This document shows positions 42,581 through 60,100 of a stretch of DNA of 64,000 bases, in pieces. The first letter of the stretch is position 1. Every line of letters begins with the position of its first letter. The notes below the pieces were generated by a model. The model did not search any database, was not told the DNA's origin, and saw only the letters and a list, made by a program, of their open reading frames with translations. This DNA is from Cryoendolithus antarcticus (taxonomy: Eukaryota > Ascomycota > Dothideomycetes > Cladosporiales > Cladosporiaceae). The stretch lies in contig NAJO01000024.1 of the NCBI GenBank assembly GCA_002077065.1, positions 434,001-498,000 of the forward strand. Direction: 5' to 3'. Made by a program: the position numbers and the translations under genes.

Positions 42581-44349
42581 TCAGCGTATAAGGAACGTTG
42601 TCGACTTCTCCGGCAGCGTGAGGCGTCCTAGGCGCACATCGCAGTTCTCGTAGTACTCGTCATCCTTCGTGTTGTGCAGCAAGGCCTTGCCGTGAAGCGT
42701 ATGATACATCTTTCCGAGTGGCCGCAGAACGCGCAGCACCGGCACGGAGGTCAGATGTACGATGATATCTCCTGCTCTGATAGTATCGAGCGCGATGCCC
42801 GGCATACCGTCAGTGGTCATGAAGACCGCTCGATGGCGTAGTATACCATCGAGAATCTTTGAGCTGTGCGATCATCAGTTGAGCATCTGACGATTAGTGT
42901 ATACAGCACTTACGGATCGCGTGCATCCCATGCGAGGTAGCTGATGAGAGGGTACCATCGCTTGTAAGCAGCATCGCGGCGTAGCACGGTTTTGTGCAGC
43001 CACTTCTGTATCCTAGGACGATCATCACTCCACTCTGTCAGTGCTCGACGAAGCAGCGCTAGACTATTCGACTCAACAGCCTTCACAGTGGCGATTGCGT
43101 AGCCAGGCCAGCTGATGCAATCGTTTTGTAACATGGGCCTCTCGGGACGATGTAAGATCGAGGGAGTGTAACCGAACTGCGCCGCCCACATCGGAGGGAA
43201 TAGTATCTTGTTGACTTCATTTTGCGCGGCTTCTGTGTCCCACACCCAAGACGGAAGGGCAGGATTTCGGACGTACTGCTCAAGCAGCACGTAGTCGAAG
43301 TTACCCTGCACAGAGATGATGTGTCGGCTACAATCCTCTTGGATCTCCTCTAGTGACTTGTCGTAGTCAACTGCTAACTTCGGCTCCCCGGCGTCCGCAA
43401 AGGTGACTCCGTTGAGCTGATACAGTAATGCGTAGATCTTATCCTTGGGATCCGAGGCACTAAAGTTGGTGGCGGCCGTGACCACGAAGTCTGCGAGTCC
43501 GCTGCGCGCCGACTCGCTCTGCGCGCGGGTAATCCGCTTCATGTCCTGCGCCTTGACCCAGTCGGCGGTCTTTGCTAGGGAAACGAACTTGTCCAGGTTA
43601 GCCAGGACATCATAGATCTCCTCGTAGATCTGCGTGAGATGCGCGTCGTGCACGAAGATTCGCTTCTGGACGAAGTTCGTGACAAGCTCGTTCCAGACGA
43701 TGTGATGCTTGCGGCAGTGTATGGTCGCGTTACCCAGGCTCAATGCTAGCTCCTGAATGACCCAGAACCTGGTGAACCATCTTCGCTTGGACAATTCTCG
43801 CAGACCCTTCAGACTTTCTGCTGTAAGCTTCTTCTCACTCAAGTGTGTCAATACCAAATCTGTACGAGGAGTTGACGGACCGAGCCATACAATCACCTCG
43901 CTTGCGGTGCGGTAGATATCTGGCATGCAACTAACTTGATGAGACCGCTCCTGAGTATCGAACTGATTGATACAGATTGCATCCACCCAGAGAGCGATCT
44001 CGCCAGACTTCGGACGAAGTGTCCAAAGCGCGTCCCAGAGGTTTCGAGTGATCGTGAAGGGTGAGTCGTTAACGTGGATGGTAGACACATCTTGCTCGTC
44101 TTCCTCGCCCCAGGTATAGGACAGAGCCTTGTACGTAGGCTTATCCGATAGTTTGGCTGTTAAGAGTGTACACTCAATTGCAAGCGTGTTTCTATGGCGG
44201 AGGTGCAAAATGCGAATCTCAGGGTCATTGGCTGTGCCTTTCTCAAGAGCAAGGTTGCGATACGCTGCGTTGTGAGTATTGCCGAGGGCTTGTCCTCGCC
44301 AGCCATGAGGTGCGCCGTGACCAACAATGCTCGACACATCGGCTTCCAT
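42581..44349 (-). CDS. Heterokaryon incompatibility (HET) domain protein
   Basis: Exons 44349-42914 and 42863-42581 encode 572 aa; the 50-bp intron (donor GTAAGT, acceptor CACAG, phase 2) avoids a stop directly after the exon 1 end. The HET domain spans about 75-230: YKALSYTWGEEDE, LWVDAICINQFD, MPDIYRTASEVIVWLGPS and RRWFTRFWVIQEL, the three classic HET blocks. HET proteins take part in non-self recognition and can trigger cell death when hyphae fuse, but most members have no tested role. The C-terminal half has no other domain I recognise. No STAND/NACHT or prion-type partner lies nearby. Confidence 0.9.
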
Positions 44350-52543: not shown

Positions 52544-53372
52544 ATGACTCGCCCCTCCTCGTCCGCAGAAGTCAAGACGACCAGCAAATCTACACCTCCA
52601 CCACGCGACCACATCACAAGCTCTGCGTTGAAGGAAGGATCGAACACCTGACAACGCAAGTCAAAGTCAATGGACTATGAAGCTTGGAAACGACAACGAA
52701 GGCATTGGTGAAGGGTCAGAGGACGTCGAGCTTCTGCTCAATAAAACCACATGGAAGGAAGCGAAGGTTTACTGAAACTTGTTTGAGATGCTCTAATACC
52801 GACTGGCCGCCGACGAGGTGGTAGTCTTTGAGATCTTGATGCATCGAATGTTGAGGTAGCAAATGAATGTGCTGCTCAAGTGCTTTGTGACCATCTCATC
52901 GCGAGGACTCAGAGATTGTCGTCGTGCACAGTGACTTCCGATGACATGCTCAGCCGCCTGCTCGCCGTTAGCGTATAAAATGGGCTTTCAGCAAGTAGGT
53001 CAACGACGTTGACGACGAAGCTGCGAACCTCTTGGACAGGCTTTCCGGAGTCCGCCAAACTGTCCAATAGCAAGCTCGACTGATTATATTCGTCGCACAT
53101 AGTCTCGGAGGCATCGTCGCTGAAAAGGTTCGTCTGCTGCCAGGTCTCGGCGTCTCGGCACTGTCTACTGTACTGACATTTTATAGGCCATGATTGAGAG
53201 CTCGTGCTACACTATCGTAGGGGCTGATCGCTGCGGCTACGGGGAGCAGCAAATCGATACATCCGGAAAACGTGATGTGCGGTATACGGCAGAACCATTG
53301 GGATAGGTGAGACTCGATTGTCGATGCCTTGCGTTCGATGTCTGTATGCACCCGCCTTGTGCTAGCACAGCG
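52544..53372. other. Intergenic between eL41 and the minus-strand microprotein
   Basis: The 829 bp between two converging genes shows no recognised gene. A 63-codon minus frame at 52909-53100 has no family features. The right end (53357-53372) holds the palindrome shared with the sister gene. Confidence 0.35.
53357..53372 (-). repeat. 3' palindromic element shared by the two microprotein genes (copy A)
   Basis: This is the same 16 nt as at 54329-54344, again starting at the base after the TAA. Together with the last coding codons, 25 nt are identical between the genes. Confidence 0.85.
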
Positions 53373-53659
53373 TTAACATCCTCCGCCTCCACCTCCGCCT
53401 CCACCACCTCCACCACCTCCACTGCTCGCAGCACCACTGGCACCTATCGCGCTGATTTCAAAATCAGCATGAATTCGTAGTTGTGTGGTCTTGAGGGCAT
53501 TTACCCAGCTATTGCCGCATTGTTGCCGCGGCGACGACGGCGTCGCTTTTTCATCTCTTCATCTGAGGGCGAAGGTCCTGTGATACCAGATGTGCCGCTG
53601 AGTATAGCGCGGCCGTCTGCATCGTATCGTGTTTCTGGTGTGGAGAGTCCGCAGCCCAT
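53373..53659 (-). CDS. Glycine-tailed MGC microprotein A (77 aa), paralog of B
   Basis: Exons 53659-53505 and 53451-53373, with a 53-bp phase-2 intron (donor GTAAAT, acceptor ATCAG), encode 77 aa. The protein starts MGCGLSTPE, has an acidic then polybasic patch (DEEMKK followed by six Arg), the core GNNAAIAGAIGASGAASS, and ends in 14 Gly and a final Cys. The N-terminus fits the N-myristoylation pattern (Gly2, Ser6), and Cys3 next to it is a typical palmitoylation site; with the basic patch this suggests a membrane-bound protein. I recognise no family. The intron position, both termini and the 3' flank match gene B at 54117-54328 in the opposite orientation. No function is proposed. Confidence 0.72.
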
Positions 53660-54116
53660 ATTCGGATGTAGTGTTCAAGTTGGCTGTGGTAGTCTTCTGA
53701 TGTGGTTGTATGAATCCGCTGGACGACATAGTGGAATGGCTTCCCTACATATACTGCATTACCTACGGGGATCTACATGTCAACGTGCCTTGTGATTGCG
53801 CAGATCGTATTGTATCGCAAGGCGGCGATGTTGGTGGTGCTAAGCCTTGGGGACCGACGATCGCAGGATGAGGCTGAGTGCTTCGGCCGTGGGGGATCTT
53901 CTCGTCAATACTACTTGATGGCTGTGGTGCCCGGAACACGGCACACTGATACAGTCCAGGCGTGAATCCACATCTCCTATCACAAGGCGCACTCACCAGG
54001 AGATCATCGCAGACAGTATGATATAAGTAAGGTAGGTATTTCTTCTCACGTTTCTCAACATCTCAAACATCCACATCTACAGACCACTCAAAAACAGTCC
54101 GATCAAAGAAACAAGT
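53660..54116. promoter_or_regulatory. Divergent promoter of the microprotein pair
   Basis: The 457 bp between the two start codons. TATATG read on the minus strand (53753-53748) lies 89 bp before the ATG of A, and TATAAG (54022-54027) lies 90 bp before the ATG of B. This is a mirror-image layout that suggests an inverted duplication including core promoters. TATA assignment is inference. Confidence 0.45.
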
Positions 54117-54328
54117 ATGGGCTGCGGACTTTCTACACAAAATTCACCCTCAGAGGAGGCGATTGCATACCGACAGAAGCGTGACCAGGTGACCAATGGG
54201 GCAATAGCTGGGTGAGTGGTCTTACTACTATGCATCATTCACGCATGGTTGCTGACATTGAAACCAGCGCGATAGGTGCGAGTGCTGCTGTAAGTAGTGC
54301 AGCTGCGGGAGGAGGTGGAGGATGTTAA
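54117..54328 (+). CDS. Glycine-tailed MGC microprotein B (51 aa), paralog of A
   Basis: Exons 54117-54211 and 54268-54328, with a 56-bp phase-2 intron (donor GTGAGT, GCTGAC branch site, acceptor ACCAG), encode 51 aa: MGCGLSTQNSPSEEAIAYRQ, KRDQVTNGAIAGAIGAS, AAVSSAAA, five Gly and a final Cys. It shares with A the MGCGLST start, the PS(D/E)E motif, a basic patch, the core AIAG|AIGAS split at the same base, and the Gly-Cys end. It lacks about 20 residues found in A after position 8. N-myristoylation at Gly2 and palmitoylation at Cys3 are predicted from pattern only. Family and function unknown. Confidence 0.72.
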
Positions 54329-54344
54329 CGCTGTGCTAGCACAA
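54329..54344 (+). repeat. 3' palindromic element shared by the two microprotein genes (copy B)
   Basis: Directly after the stop codon of B, CGCTGTGCTAGCACAA contains the perfect 12-nt palindrome TGTGCTAGCACA. The same 16 nt follows the stop codon of A on the minus strand (53372-53357). Confidence 0.85.
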
Positions 54345-54519
54345 TGCGAAAAGTCATGAGGATGTCAGGGCCAGGGTGAAGCCGTTACCAAGAATGTATC
54401 AATATCATCATAGCGAAATTGTCTAAGCATCATTTCTACCCAGCTCGGCAAAGTGTGTGGCAGTCAATGAAACGAAGGTCCCGTCAAACCCACTGTCGTT
54501 CTCTGGAGTGCGCATAACA

Positions 54520-56304
54520 TTACGAAGCAAATGTTCGTGACTCCGACCTTGCTGCCAGACGTGCCTTTGCAGCTGCAATACGATCAGCGCTGACTTCTCT
54601 GCCCTTCCTGTCGCGAAGACCGCCATCTGCCGTCACGTCGATGTGGCGGGGGACCACTATAATCTCCTTGCCGGGAAGCTGCAGAGGGACTGCAGTCTTT
54701 GGATTGATGTTCTCTTTGTAATCGATGGTACATCGAAGTAGCCGGTCTGTGTGCCCTGACTTGGGTCGTGTTGGTGATGCGGGCTGGCCAAGGACTACGT
54801 CAGACTGGAATGGACTCGACATTGGCGGCTCAGGCAGATCATTCTGCTCATGCTTCGGTGGCGAAGGCGGCCTGTCAGCTGGTGCTGCTGCTGAACCGTC
54901 GTGGTTCGAGGAGACTTGCAATAGCGGACCGTTGCTTCTTGCAGGTGCATGGCTAGGCGACAGGGAGTCTCGACGATCTGCCGTTTCTTTTGAGGTCGTC
55001 GTCTCTACGACATGACTGTGCTTGCTGATTTGAACATGCGGGAGTGCCGGTAGACTTCTCTGCGCTGCGCTAAGATTGGCACGCTCTGCAACGTTCGTCA
55101 CATTGACAGACGGTGCCACATTAGTGCCAGAAGTGACAGCGCGACCCGTGGTACGACTGTTGTCCAGCCGATGAGCATTGTGCGCCACCACTGGACTGCT
55201 AGACACCAGCTGATTTGTCCAGATGTCAGTAGGAAGATTGCCAGCCCTGTGGCGCGTGCGATTAGGCCGCGAGGACTTTGTGTCAGGCTTAGCTGCCGGC
55301 GCTCCGACAATACTTGAAACGTATGCTTCAAGATCTGCTGGTGGTGCACTGGTCTGTATTGGAGCCTCTAGCTCAGTCGCCCTGGTTGCCCGTGCAATAA
55401 CCGCAGGCTTCTCTGTGTCGTGTGTTGCGACCGCAGCCGGTACCACATCAATCTTGAGCTGTACCTGGAGTGCTTTGAGCTGCGCCTCGAGCTCTGCTGC
55501 TCGCTTCTGCAACTTATCCACCTTCTTCTTCTCTTGGCGTAGCTCGTCGGCTAACTCGGTGCATTGTTGATCCTTCTCACGCGCAAAGCTCTTTGCGGCT
55601 CTCTGCTTTGTGACGAGCTTCTTCACCTCGCGCGTTGTGTTCGCACGGTAAATATCGTACTCTCGCTTCCAATAGATACCGGACTCGGATGTGGGCTCAT
55701 CCATGTCAACACTTGCGTTGCCATCTACGCTGGCTGTGTCCGTCGCCTGCGTTTCGAAGGTGCGCTTTGCTGATTCATCACGCACTCTGTGCAGCTCCTC
55801 TGTGAGCTTGCTGCGCCCTCCTTCACGAGCTCCACGAGCAATTCCGTCATCATCGTGTAATTCTGCACTAGCCACCCACGGACTTGGGAACTTGCCGGGG
55901 AAGTCATCTGGGAGACCGGACTTGCCGCCTTGGCTCGCCCTCTTCGCACCCTCGTCGTTCACGTGATCGCCAAAGGTGACTGTCTTGCGTCGCGCGTTCG
56001 CTGTGCCTGGCGTCATGAGGATTCCCTTAGTAGGAGAAGCCATAGGGTCCGGCAAAGCAGCGGCTTGCTTGGTAGCGAAAGTGATGGCATCGCTCGCACT
56101 CTTTGGTCGCGTCATGTGCGGTCGAGGCGCCCTGCCTGCAGTCGGTATAGGACGCTGTCGGTCTCGTTCGTTGTGGGAGTGTCGCCGCGCCTTCGGCTGA
56201 GCTGTCTGTGGCGTGCCGAAGATGGCATGCTTGAACGCGCGTACGGCGAATACTGGCGCTGGCGTATCAGGCGCGTCAACGAATGTCGCTTCTGCTTCTG
56301 CCAT
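54520..56304 (-). CDS. Cut12-like spindle pole body protein
   Basis: This single-exon protein has 594 aa. It has the conserved SPTKGILMTPGTANARRKTV, then TFGDHVNDEG block near residues 90-115. A second conserved block, ESGIYWKREYDIYRANTTRE with KKLVTKQRAAKSFAREKD, leads into a coiled coil (about 215-285). These are the two parts of the fungal Cut12 family, which sits at the spindle pole body and promotes mitotic entry through Polo kinase in fission yeast. The C-terminal half is disordered, rich in Ser/Pro/Thr, ending with DRKGREVSADRIAAAKARLA. Divergent from GCN2. Confidence 0.82.
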   Translation of the reverse strand: MAEAEATFVDAPDTPAPVFAVRAFKHAIFGTPQTAQPKARRHSHNERDRQRPIPTAGRAPRPHMTRPKSASDAITFATKQAAALPDPMASPTKGILMTPGTANARRKTVTFGDHVNDEGAKRASQGGKSGLPDDFPGKFPSPWVASAELHDDDGIARGAREGGRSKLTEELHRVRDESAKRTFETQATDTASVDGNASVDMDEPTSESGIYWKREYDIYRANTTREVKKLVTKQRAAKSFAREKDQQCTELADELRQEKKKVDKLQKRAAELEAQLKALQVQLKIDVVPAAVATHDTEKPAVIARATRATELEAPIQTSAPPADLEAYVSSIVGAPAAKPDTKSSRPNRTRHRAGNLPTDIWTNQLVSSSPVVAHNAHRLDNSRTTGRAVTSGTNVAPSVNVTNVAERANLSAAQRSLPALPHVQISKHSHVVETTTSKETADRRDSLSPSHAPARSNGPLLQVSSNHDGSAAAPADRPPSPPKHEQNDLPEPPMSSPFQSDVVLGQPASPTRPKSGHTDRLLRCTIDYKENINPKTAVPLQLPGKEIIVVPRHIDVTADGGLRDRKGREVSADRIAAAKARLAARSESRTFAS

Positions 56305-57163
56305 ACCAGTCAGTGCTCTGTCGACTTTACTGTGAACGACCCGCGTTGTTTACCTCCTGCGCCCTCAGGCGCCTTCGCACCCGCTAACCAATGGAGCATG
56401 ACTTTGACAAGTACGTGCTGTCACCTGAATGCGATCCCCAGTACTGCCAGCTGCACTATACTTGACGAATGATGCCGTTGCTAAGGTGTTCAATTGATGT
56501 AAACACCAATCGCGTCAGTGAACTCTACCCCACGTCAGACGTTAGTGACAAAAGAAGCCGACCACCCAAGAAATCCATGCAAGTGGTACTGCTAGTGTAT
56601 ATAACTCTGCGATAACGAATCGCTGTTAGCATTACCTAGGAGACTTTCTGAAGATGACAGCATACTCTCTCCGATAGTGTACATATCGATGCACTATTCC
56701 AGCGCTGCATGAAGTAGCACTCCCCATCATAGCGGGTCGCTGAGCGGTTCGCTTCTTCTGTCACTCGCGTGGGCGTCTGGGGCACGCACGGAACGGTCAT
56801 ATCGCAAAGCATTCGGAATGAATTTCAATAATTACTATTGGACCCAACTTCTGCACTGTCCTCGATGAATAGCGAAGCTGTCATGTCGTCACGGTGAAGG
56901 CTGCGGCTTCGGCTGGAGTCACGTCGCCACCTCTGGCGACCAACCTTGGTATCTCTCCCAAAAATCTGAACGCTCCTGCGGTGCTGTGAGTGCACCTGCA
57001 ACAGGCAATATTTCACTCATGTCGGGGAGAGAAGCCGTACCGATTGCAGCTAATTTCGCTTTCGACTTGGAACTCTCATAGGCACGGGAGTAAGGTGAGT
57101 CACTTTCCTGGGTGCACTTGTAATACCATTGGCAACATCTCAGACATCTGGAACAGCAAAGGC
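56305..57163. promoter_or_regulatory. Divergent region Cut12 / GCN2, with GCN2 leader features
   Basis: The 859 bp holds both promoters. In the GCN2 leader, an upstream ORF of 20 codons runs 57019-57081 (ATG TCG ... TCA TAG). A possible 5'-UTR intron is 57095-57143 (donor GTGAGT, acceptor CTCAG). TGAGTCA at 57096-57102 is a perfect Gcn4/CPC1 (AP-1) consensus but overlaps that donor, so it may be chance. Confidence 0.4.
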
Positions 57164-60100
57164 ATGGCCCCGAAGTCATCGTGGAACGCAAGATCTGCAC
57201 CTACAAATGCCTCCAAGCAGCCGCCTGCGCAGCATGCGGACGAGGTGCAGGTCGAGGAGATCGAGGTACTCCAGGCTATCTACATGGAGAATTTCCGGGA
57301 CCTTGAGGTAAAGACCGCATGGAACAAGACAGCAGAACGACGATTTACGCTCGTCTTACAAGCTTCAAATAATGCCGAAGTCTTTGTGACGATGTTTGTT
57401 ACATTGTCCGCTACCTATCCAAAGTCTCCACCGACGCTCGCGATCGATGATCTAGGTGCCTTTCACGAGCGGACAAAGACGCGTATCAACAATGTAATCG
57501 CGAAACGTCCGCTACAATTAGTTGGCGACGTGATGATCTACGTTATCGCGTCAGAAATTCAGGAAGCACTCGATGATGCGGTACAGGCTAGGGTTGAGGG
57601 CACTTTGCCTAGTCTAGACGAGGAACGTGCAAGTGCGGAGGAAGTGGCCAACGCGCTCGCTAAACAAGCAGTAGACGACGAGACGCGCCGCGCTCTGGAA
57701 GCTCAAGAGGATGAGGATCGTGTGCTAAGACAGATGGTCGACGAGGAGCTTTATCGTCGTCAGAAACGACAAGCCGCGAGATCGACGATCAACGAAGATG
57801 ATCACGCAGTTGACACTACCGAGGAGACTATACGTTTCGATCAGCCTGCATCCATCACTGTAGAATCCGAAACTCTGCATTTCTCTTCGGTAACGATCGT
57901 ATGGCAGCAGAACGACGATCAATGGCTTGGGAAGCCATTGTTATCAGCAAAGAACTCACGTGTCCCACTTGTGGCGATCAATCGATTCAGCCTGCCGCGT
58001 CAATCACGCGAAGAACTCGGCAACCTAGAGCGGATCCTAGTCCTTGCGCGAGCTGTGAAAGGCGATAACATAGCCTGTCTATATGCCTTCCGTATCGACA
58101 AATTTGACGTCTATGCGGAGCTCACATTATGCGCACAACAGATCAACGGTGGCACACTGCGCGACTCGTTGATGCTTCATGGAACACTTGACTTAGAGGT
58201 CGCAAGGCGTTTTACTCTACATCTCCTCGAGGCTATTGACACATGTCACCGTACCGGTGTGGCTCATGGCAGCATAAGCACTGCAACCATTATCGTGAGC
58301 ACGACCGCGCCCCCGACACCGGTTTTGATGAATACTGCATATGGAAGCAGTCTGTCAGACGGAAACGCACATGCTCCACGGTCGCTGGCCTGGCATCCAC
58401 CGGAGGGCTTCCATTCCGTTACAGATCTCAAATCACGAAAAACTGATATCTGGATGCTCGGTATTGTTGTGCTGCAGATGTTCTTGGGGCCCGATATCAT
58501 CGAAACCTACACACCGTCAAGTATTTGGAGCAAAGCATCGCTAGGCAGCGTCTTCATGGACTTCGCTCGACGCCTGCTAACCCATGACTTCCGGAAGCGC
58601 CCGTCACCATTTGATTTGTTGCCTGCAGAGTTCCTCCGAACAAGTGCTACGGCGATCGAACAACATGAGCCGGTCGACGGCACCACCTATGCCTCATCAG
58701 TCGCTGGCGCCAAGAGTCCAGCCAGACGGCGTTCAAGGCACAACTCCAGCAATGTGCTTGAGCCTGTCTCACGATATGCTGCTGACTTCACGGAGCTGGG
58801 ACGTTTGGGTAAGGGAGGGTTTGGTGAAGTTGTGAAGGCTCGTAACAAATTGGACGGCTCGGTGTACGCCATCAAGAAGATCAGCCAGGCACCACAGCTT
58901 GATCACATTCTGTCTGAGGTCATGCTACTGAACCGTCTGAATCACCCATACGTGGTAAGATACTACTCGACTTGGGTGGAGGAGAATGTGCACACGAAGC
59001 ATGAGGAAGCCACCAGCACTACGGATGAGACGGTCACTGAAGATCGGAACACAGATACAGGGGAAGATGCTCCCTCCCATAGTCCACGCTACGACTTTGG
59101 ATATCAAAGTGCAAGCGGTCTGGACTTTGTGTCGTCGAGTGGTTATCCCCAGATAGAGTTCGGGGATGACAGCGGATCCGAAAGTGACGATTCGGCATCG
59201 CAGCCAGCCTTGCCTGCAGACGCGTCCCAAGAAGTCGACGACATCTTTGAAGCCCGTGAGAGCTCGCCCTCACCAGAGCTTGCTCAGTCGAGGACACCTG
59301 GCACCCCAACACGCAAGATCCTATCAACGCTCTACATTCAGATGGAATATTGCGAGCGAAGGACTCTTCGTGACTACATCCTTCGAGTCATAAGCGAAGA
59401 AGATGCGTGGCGTTTCATCCGCCAAATTACCGAAGGACTGGCGCATGTACACGGTCACGGCATCATCCATCGAGATCTGAAGCCCGACAACATCTTCGTC
59501 GATGCACTTGGAAATCCCAAGATTGGAGACTTTGGACTTGCCACCACAAGTCAGTATCTTGCACTGGACAGTACCACTTCCGTGAACGGCAGCGTCAACG
59601 GTGATATGACTAGAAGCGTCGGGACTGCCCTTTATGTCGCGCCCGAACTACGATCAGGGTCTGGAGGCTCCTACACTGACAAAGTGGATATGTACAGTCT
59701 CGGGATCATGTTCTACGAGATGTGTGAGCCGTTTGCGACGGCCATGGAACGCATTTGCGCTCTGCAGCTGATTCGAGAGAAGGGAGCATCGTTACCGGCG
59801 CAGTATCAGGCAAGTGCACCAAAGGCAGCGCAAGGCAGATTGATCGAATGCTTGATCTCACATAAGCCAAGTGAGCGGCCGAGCAGCACTGAACTACTCC
59901 GGAGCAATGTTCTACCTCTGAAGATTGAGGATGAGACCATCCGCCAGGCGCTCGATTCGCTAGGCGACGCCCGATCACCATACCATCAAAAGATGATGTC
60001 AGCACTGTTCTCACATGATGAGGCCAGCAACAATCGTGTGAAGGCACTGGCATGGGACGCTAAGCATCAGAACACCATTGAGAAAGCGGACTATGTTCGC

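Follow-up and report, generated by a model that had tools for sequence, protein, structure and literature searches.

Two small spliced genes, A and B, lie in inverted orientation in a 64,000-nucleotide stretch of Cryoendolithus antarcticus DNA (the window), and both are real protein-coding genes. The family to which they belong is wider than the earlier note on this DNA had seen, as it comprises two branches whose proteins start with MGCG or MGCF. The reading that we favour, and hold to be fairly probable, is that these genes encode lineage-restricted, small adaptor proteins anchored by myristate and palmitate, with the lipids, the membrane site and the adaptor role all predicted from sequence.

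The gene models reproduced from the window sequence recover the two spliced genes at the sites, and with the proteins, that had been claimed for them:

53505..53659, minus strand: exon 1 of gene A (155 nt), encoding the MGCGLST head, YDADGRA, PSPSDEE and the basic patch KKRRRRRR.
53452..53504, minus strand: intron of gene A (53 nt, GTAAAT...CTGATTTTGAAATCAG, GT..AG, phase 2).
53373..53451, minus strand: exon 2 of gene A, encoding AIGASGAASS, 14 Gly, Cys and the stop.
54117..54211, plus strand: exon 1 of gene B (95 nt), encoding the MGCGLST head, SPSEE and QKRDQVTN; identical in the deposited protein P0002.
54212..54267, plus strand: intron of gene B (56 nt, GTGAGT...CTGACATTGAAACCAG, GT..AG, phase 2), whose splice agrees with the deposited protein.
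54268..54328, plus strand: exon 2 of gene B, encoding AIGASAAVSSAAA, 5 Gly, Cys and the stop; identical in P0002.

The frames read from the window DNA yield spliced products of 77 aa for A and 51 aa for B. Both introns are in phase 2, since exon 1 of A measures 155 nt and that of B 95 nt, and they interrupt one codon of AIAG|AIGAS in A and B alike, with CTGA(C/T) just 5' of the acceptor in both genes. The matching intron position and the poly-Gly plus terminal Cys ends of the earlier description are thus confirmed by exon length and by count, respectively. The exact 51-aa spliced product of B is the deposited C. antarcticus protein B0A48_10285 (P0002), and the assertion that neither gene would be found with usual length cut-offs fails for this already annotated gene; the protein database search did not return the product of A.

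The window sits on a contig of 762,237 bases (C67) in a genome of 46.97 Mb and 149 contigs. C. antarcticus was formerly named Rachicladosporium antarcticum, according to an excerpt of one paper (PMC10739867), and its published draft genome comprises 18,781 genes on 267 contigs that total 47.4 Mb (PMC5502844). A further paper suggests that genome duplication induced by stress may have caused the high gene number (PMC12560822). The genome analysed here is duplicated: its G-alpha matches form like pairs (C58/C139 and C57/C71), and the surroundings of A and B match contig C64 at 83% and 88% in two long pieces and at 74% and 76% in two shorter ones. The C64 counterpart contains one gene, Ah, which occupies the place and orientation of B and yet carries an A-type exon 1 and upstream sequence, its 3' flank being closer to B (48/81) than to A (25/77). 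Ah retains the frame, the intron and a tail of 13 Gly plus Cys. Where A starts with ATG, Ah has ACG, and no ATG occurs between this codon and a TGA six codons further 5'; its AIAGAIGAS core shows three changes, the core being unchanged in A, B and the deposited proteins P0001 and P0003. Ah either initiates at this near-cognate ACG, which sits in a good ACC-ACG-G context, or may be decaying because the ATG start is lost; the ACG might also be a sequencing error.

Upstream of Ah, C64:655319-655393 (in L022) contains about 77 aligned nt, in inverted orientation, with 75% identity to the downstream flank of A. Window positions 56789-57500, the GCN2-like end of the stretch that was compared, match C64:647279-647971, which lies several kb away from the other counterpart segments and is oriented the other way round, and the two genome copies therefore differ by a further rearrangement. 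Between the Cut12-like and the GCN2-like genes, up to about 230 bp of window positions 56544-56778 have matches at 15 further genomic sites, 14 of them with 67-76% identity and a short one with 90%, and no Rfam match at gathering score; this stretch is probably an old dispersed repeat. Genes with a HET domain (heterokaryon incompatibility) occur at window positions 42910-44349 and, near one second-branch gene, at L046:8158-9501. The neighbouring genes provided no functional hint.

When A, and next two of its hits, served as queries against the same genome, four additional genes came to light, which form two homeologous pairs:

C57:634998-635186 with C71:183256-183444: first pair of the second branch, dN/dS 0.206.
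C71:160906-161091 with C57:657263-657448: second pair of the second branch (161k/657k), dN/dS 0.227.

The proteins of this branch read MGCF[LM]S.P ... DEH[GD]R ... QPS..D..I[ED]KRR[LR]R (IQPS in one), measure 62-63 aa, are encoded in one exon as an open frame and stop after SGH, without the Gly-Cys tail. In these genes (L028, L029, L030 and L031) a GTAAGT or GTGAGT lies 10-11 nt past the stop, and the 3' untranslated region may therefore contain an intron. Identity between the branches is low, with the three MGCG rows of the alignment reaching only 38-44% to the first MGCF row. Protein database searches, in which 371, 7984 and 1709 candidates were scored, returned five proteins in all:

P0002 (B) and P0005 (B0A48_07699): Cryoendolithus antarcticus.
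P0001 and P0003: 'Oleoguttula' sp. CCFEE 5521.
P0004: Rachicladosporium sp. CCFEE 5018.

Homologues of the kind that the earlier note had proposed to seek in related genomes are present in these 'Oleoguttula' and Rachicladosporium strains, the only sources of predicted family proteins found outside C. antarcticus. The true range of the family may be wider, because such searches see only predicted proteins that have short words in common and similar length. The C-termini of P0004 and P0005 differ from the frames read here, which we think is due to gene models that splice near the stop. P0003 is deposited with 23 residues ahead of the MGCG Met; these residues begin at an ATG in the 5' leader whose counterpart in C. 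antarcticus is ACG, and are likely an annotation artefact. If the extension were real, myristoylation of P0003 would be barred.

No larger parent protein emerged when A and two second-branch proteins were searched against the same genome; the family matches were all frames of 57-92 aa, and the few weak matches in longer frames had E values of 0.07 to 0.34. Pfam yielded no meaningful match, either with a 5-member alignment scanned at E up to 10 (best E 0.18) or with a 7-member one at E up to 1 (best E 0.068), and the best match among solved structures (E 0.062) is taken as chance. In the literature, MGCGLS and MGCFLS were not found in paper text, a search for lipidated fungal microproteins found none, and a looser search listed no paper on such a family. 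Within Pfam and the literature searched, the plan indeed corresponds to no described family.

The comparison of A with Ah over 75 codons, a set from which the start codon and one of the Gly codons in A are excluded, counts 23.5 synonymous and 11.5 non-synonymous differences (dN 0.074, dS 0.520), and the resulting dN/dS of 0.143 was matched or undercut in 0/2000 neutral simulations. These simulations match transition counts, not codon usage; with an equal number of random changes, a stop was present in 1175/2000. Part of this purifying signal lies in the Gly tract; codons 2-51 give a dN/dS of 0.152 (0/2000) and codons 2-44 one of 0.126 (2/2000). For the second branch, ratios as low as those listed above arose in 2/2000 simulations for the first pair and in 67/2000 for the 161k/657k pair, where purifying selection is less secure than in the other pairs. 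Codons 2-51 of A pooled with both second-branch pairs give 0.191 (0/2000). Selection is therefore present, where its absence had been named in the earlier note as an outcome that would speak against the genes. B and P0003 match at 39/39 positions, but this conservation is not taken as a sign of selection, since an in-frame reading of the 5' leader agrees nearly as well (21/23).

These ratios bear directly on the possibility that the family consists of young orphan genes which are translated, have little function and are being lost. The narrow distribution among the proteins found would fit such a scenario, as would Ah with its ACG start and the in-frame TGA upstream. However, dN/dS is low in three homeolog pairs, albeit least convincingly in 161k/657k, the two-branch family is present in both genome copies, and Ah could still initiate from its ACG context; we consider that these genes have only a slim chance of being orphans on their way out.

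Regarding the layout of the locus, the A/B region contains two inverted arms that overlap, one of 81 nt (79%) and one of 63 nt (81%), together with a third arm of 32 nt at the two starts, and this identity of about 80% supports the paralogy of A and B. The elements that contribute to its mirror-like appearance are the following:

53357..53381, minus strand: left end of the common 3' stretch of A and B, GGATGTTAA followed by 16 nt with the palindrome TGTGCTAGCACA.
54320..54344, plus strand: right end of the common 3' stretch, the same 25 nt as the left end.
53748..53753, minus strand: TATA-like box of A (TATATG), beginning at -94 from the ATG; not kept in Ah.
54022..54027, plus strand: TATA-like box of B (TATAAG), beginning at -95 from the ATG.

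The left 25-nt end of A is identical to B at 25/25 positions and to Ah at 16/25, and just past this stretch the match between A and B falls to 20/75. Arms and identical ends of this kind could be those of a small inverted-repeat (MITE-like) mobile element, of which A and B would be the two termini rather than genes. Nevertheless, zero-mismatch copies of a 24-place end pattern occur genome-wide only at the two A/B ends, with 2 further sites at 3 mismatches, and dispersed copies were not found. In addition, Ah retains the frame, the intron and the Gly-Cys tail, the protein plan recurs in another species, and the dN/dS of 0.14 is that of a coding sequence under constraint. The mobile element is accordingly rejected as largely refuted, with a vanishingly small probability left to it. 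An RNA hairpin at the palindrome TGTGCTAGCACA is likewise unsupported (fold z-scores of 0.74 and -0.20), and window positions 52800-57000 show no Rfam match at gathering score.

The TATA-like boxes had been placed at 89 and 90 bp before the start codons, distances that agree with the -94 and -95 starts if they were measured from the 3' end of each box. In Ah, the 400 nt upstream contain no box of this kind, and two of the four second-branch genes (L028 and L031) have no TATA within 200 nt upstream. The mirror symmetry of the boxes is weak evidence, and the layout needs no special regulatory reading, as inverted paralogs appear to account for most of it, probably with some sequence exchange.

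Such exchange is suggested by the distribution of informative sites among the three genes. Within exon 1, as far as A position 140, 17 sites unite A with Ah, 5 unite A with B and 3 unite B with Ah, while from position 140 to 16 nt past the stop the corresponding counts are 11, 27 and 10; the A+Ah and A+B classes differ between the two segments with a Fisher p of 0.0004, for a boundary picked after viewing the alignment and with gapped columns left out. Three stretches contribute this surplus of A-B sites: the final 15 nt of exon 1 (14/15 in A-B, 11/15 in A-Ah), the intron (34/53 and 29/53) and the last 25 nt (25/25 and 16/25). On the other hand, exon 2 taken alone does not speak for exchange: its codons ahead of the Gly tract stand at 31/38 in both comparisons, and the Gly tract at 14/17 in A-B and 27/32 in A-Ah. 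The 'Oleoguttula' protein P0001 looks like a natural A/B chimera, its first 18 residues being A-like at 17/18 and the following ones B-like at 19/19, where A has 12. Exchange between the inverted copies A and B would explain this pattern simply, and a higher rate of change in Ah, if this copy is decaying, could be responsible for some of the A-B pattern.

At the protein level, G2, C3 and S6 of the MGC-x-[LM]-S head are kept in 10/10 distinct family sequences (in Ah without the ATG, in P0003 after the 23 extra residues), and a myristoylation (NMT) pattern of the PROSITE type is satisfied by 7/7 scanned proteins. These three residues constitute a pattern for myristoylation with an adjoining palmitoylation site, and the N-terminal lipidation pattern proposed earlier is supported by both counts. 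The terminal poly-Gly plus Cys is found in 5/5 sequences of the MGCG branch (A, B, Ah, P0001 and P0003) and in 0/5 of the MGCF branch (the four own genes and P0004), which places the tail, as far as these sequences indicate, in one branch and not in the whole family. Because the second branch keeps the MGC..S head and the basic patch without the tail, it is the N-terminal lipidation motif that represents the conserved feature.

The basic patch noted earlier in A and B is pronounced in A, as it is in Ah and the second branch, and weak in B (QKRD, net charge 0). A nuclear or nucleolar signal could be seen in the KKRRRRRR of A and the KRR[LR]R of the second branch, or the patch could form a nucleic-acid-binding tail, with the MGC head weakly used or unused. 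This seems unlikely to us, given the conservation of MGC..S in 10/10 sequences and the weakness of the patch in B. None of the 7 scanned proteins has a strong hydrophobic stretch; the most hydrophobic 19 residues, in B, average 1.34, which is below the usual membrane span. AlphaFold2, run on P0001 alone, predicts one helix at residues 24-51 with modest confidence (mean pLDDT 66.7). In five chosen 18-residue segments, the observed hydrophobic moment was matched or surpassed in 265 to 1978 of 2000 shuffles; an amphipathic helix is unsupported in these segments, and a helix lying on the membrane is weakened as a model, because the helix segments are not clearly amphipathic.

A membrane-anchored adaptor is favoured in view of the head motif, the basic patch and the lack of a strong hydrophobic stretch; the helix segments, the neutral charge of B and the missing ATG and altered core of Ah speak against it. 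A and B would be small cytosolic proteins of a lineage-restricted family, in which N-myristoylation of Gly2 and palmitoylation of Cys3 would hold the protein on a membrane and the basic patch, in A and the second branch, would add electrostatic binding. The working surface would be the central helix. For the MGCG branch, the flexible poly-Gly linker and terminal Cys might offer a second attachment point. A and B would act as membrane-bound adaptors or decoys without catalysis. A bolder version, to which we assign little likelihood, would have both ends anchored, with a lipidated or otherwise bonded Gly-Cys tail opposite the N-terminal lipids bridging two membranes or pinning a loop to one, and with the inverted pair re-mixing head and tail modules by exchange, as the apparent head/tail chimera P0001 of 'Oleoguttula' suggests. 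We know of no described family with this two-ended plan, should the C-terminal Cys be lipidated.

These genes offer a concrete case of taxonomically restricted microproteins under purifying selection that have a common lipidation head and differing tails. Moreover, the duplicated genome contains one gene as an intact copy and as a copy without ATG, which allows the retention and loss of an orphan microprotein to be viewed side by side.

Among known lipid-anchored systems, the family resembles the N-terminus of G-alpha subunits (PF00503), since one G-alpha pair of the same genome starts MGCGASSESKEGKQRNEEIENQLKRDKL and shares with B and P0001 the MGCG.S head followed by a charged segment with KRD. 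It could be envisaged that the family mimics a truncated G-alpha N-terminus (MGCG.S...EI....KRD) and competes for G-beta-gamma or docking sites, and B and P0001 do score above most shuffles (42, reached by 1/1000, and 36, reached by 6/1000). Nevertheless, whole A is ordinary (118/1000) and, without the first seven residues, so are all three (256 of 1000 for B, 72 for P0001 and 401 for A); no query stands out against the other G-alpha type compared, which starts MGAC (319 to 981 of 1000). Furthermore, the G-alpha frame stays open for 74 residues, whereas the family has its intron at codon 52 in A and codon 32 in B, and the G-alpha domain PF00503 is not among the Pfam matches listed for the 5- and 7-member scans. 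The likeness is mainly that of a common lipidation head, and such mimicry is improbable; descent from G-alpha, as suggested by MGCG.S and KRD, is rejected, the score outside the heptad not exceeding that of shuffles.

Two other systems resemble the membrane-anchored adaptors envisaged here. The LAMTOR1/Ego1 scaffolds are also small and tethered by an N-terminal myristate plus palmitate, lipids that are predicted in our family; unlike in them, the LAMTOR domain is not among the few weak Pfam matches listed, from which HMMER filters drop very weak ones. Myristoyl-electrostatic anchors of the MARCKS/Src type, for their part, combine myristate, again predicted here, with a basic patch and a nearby phosphorylatable Ser, which in A would lie in the acidic PSPSDEE. 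One branch of our family differs from them in adding a poly-Gly-Cys tail, and the likeness is one of plan, with no sequence relation claimed.
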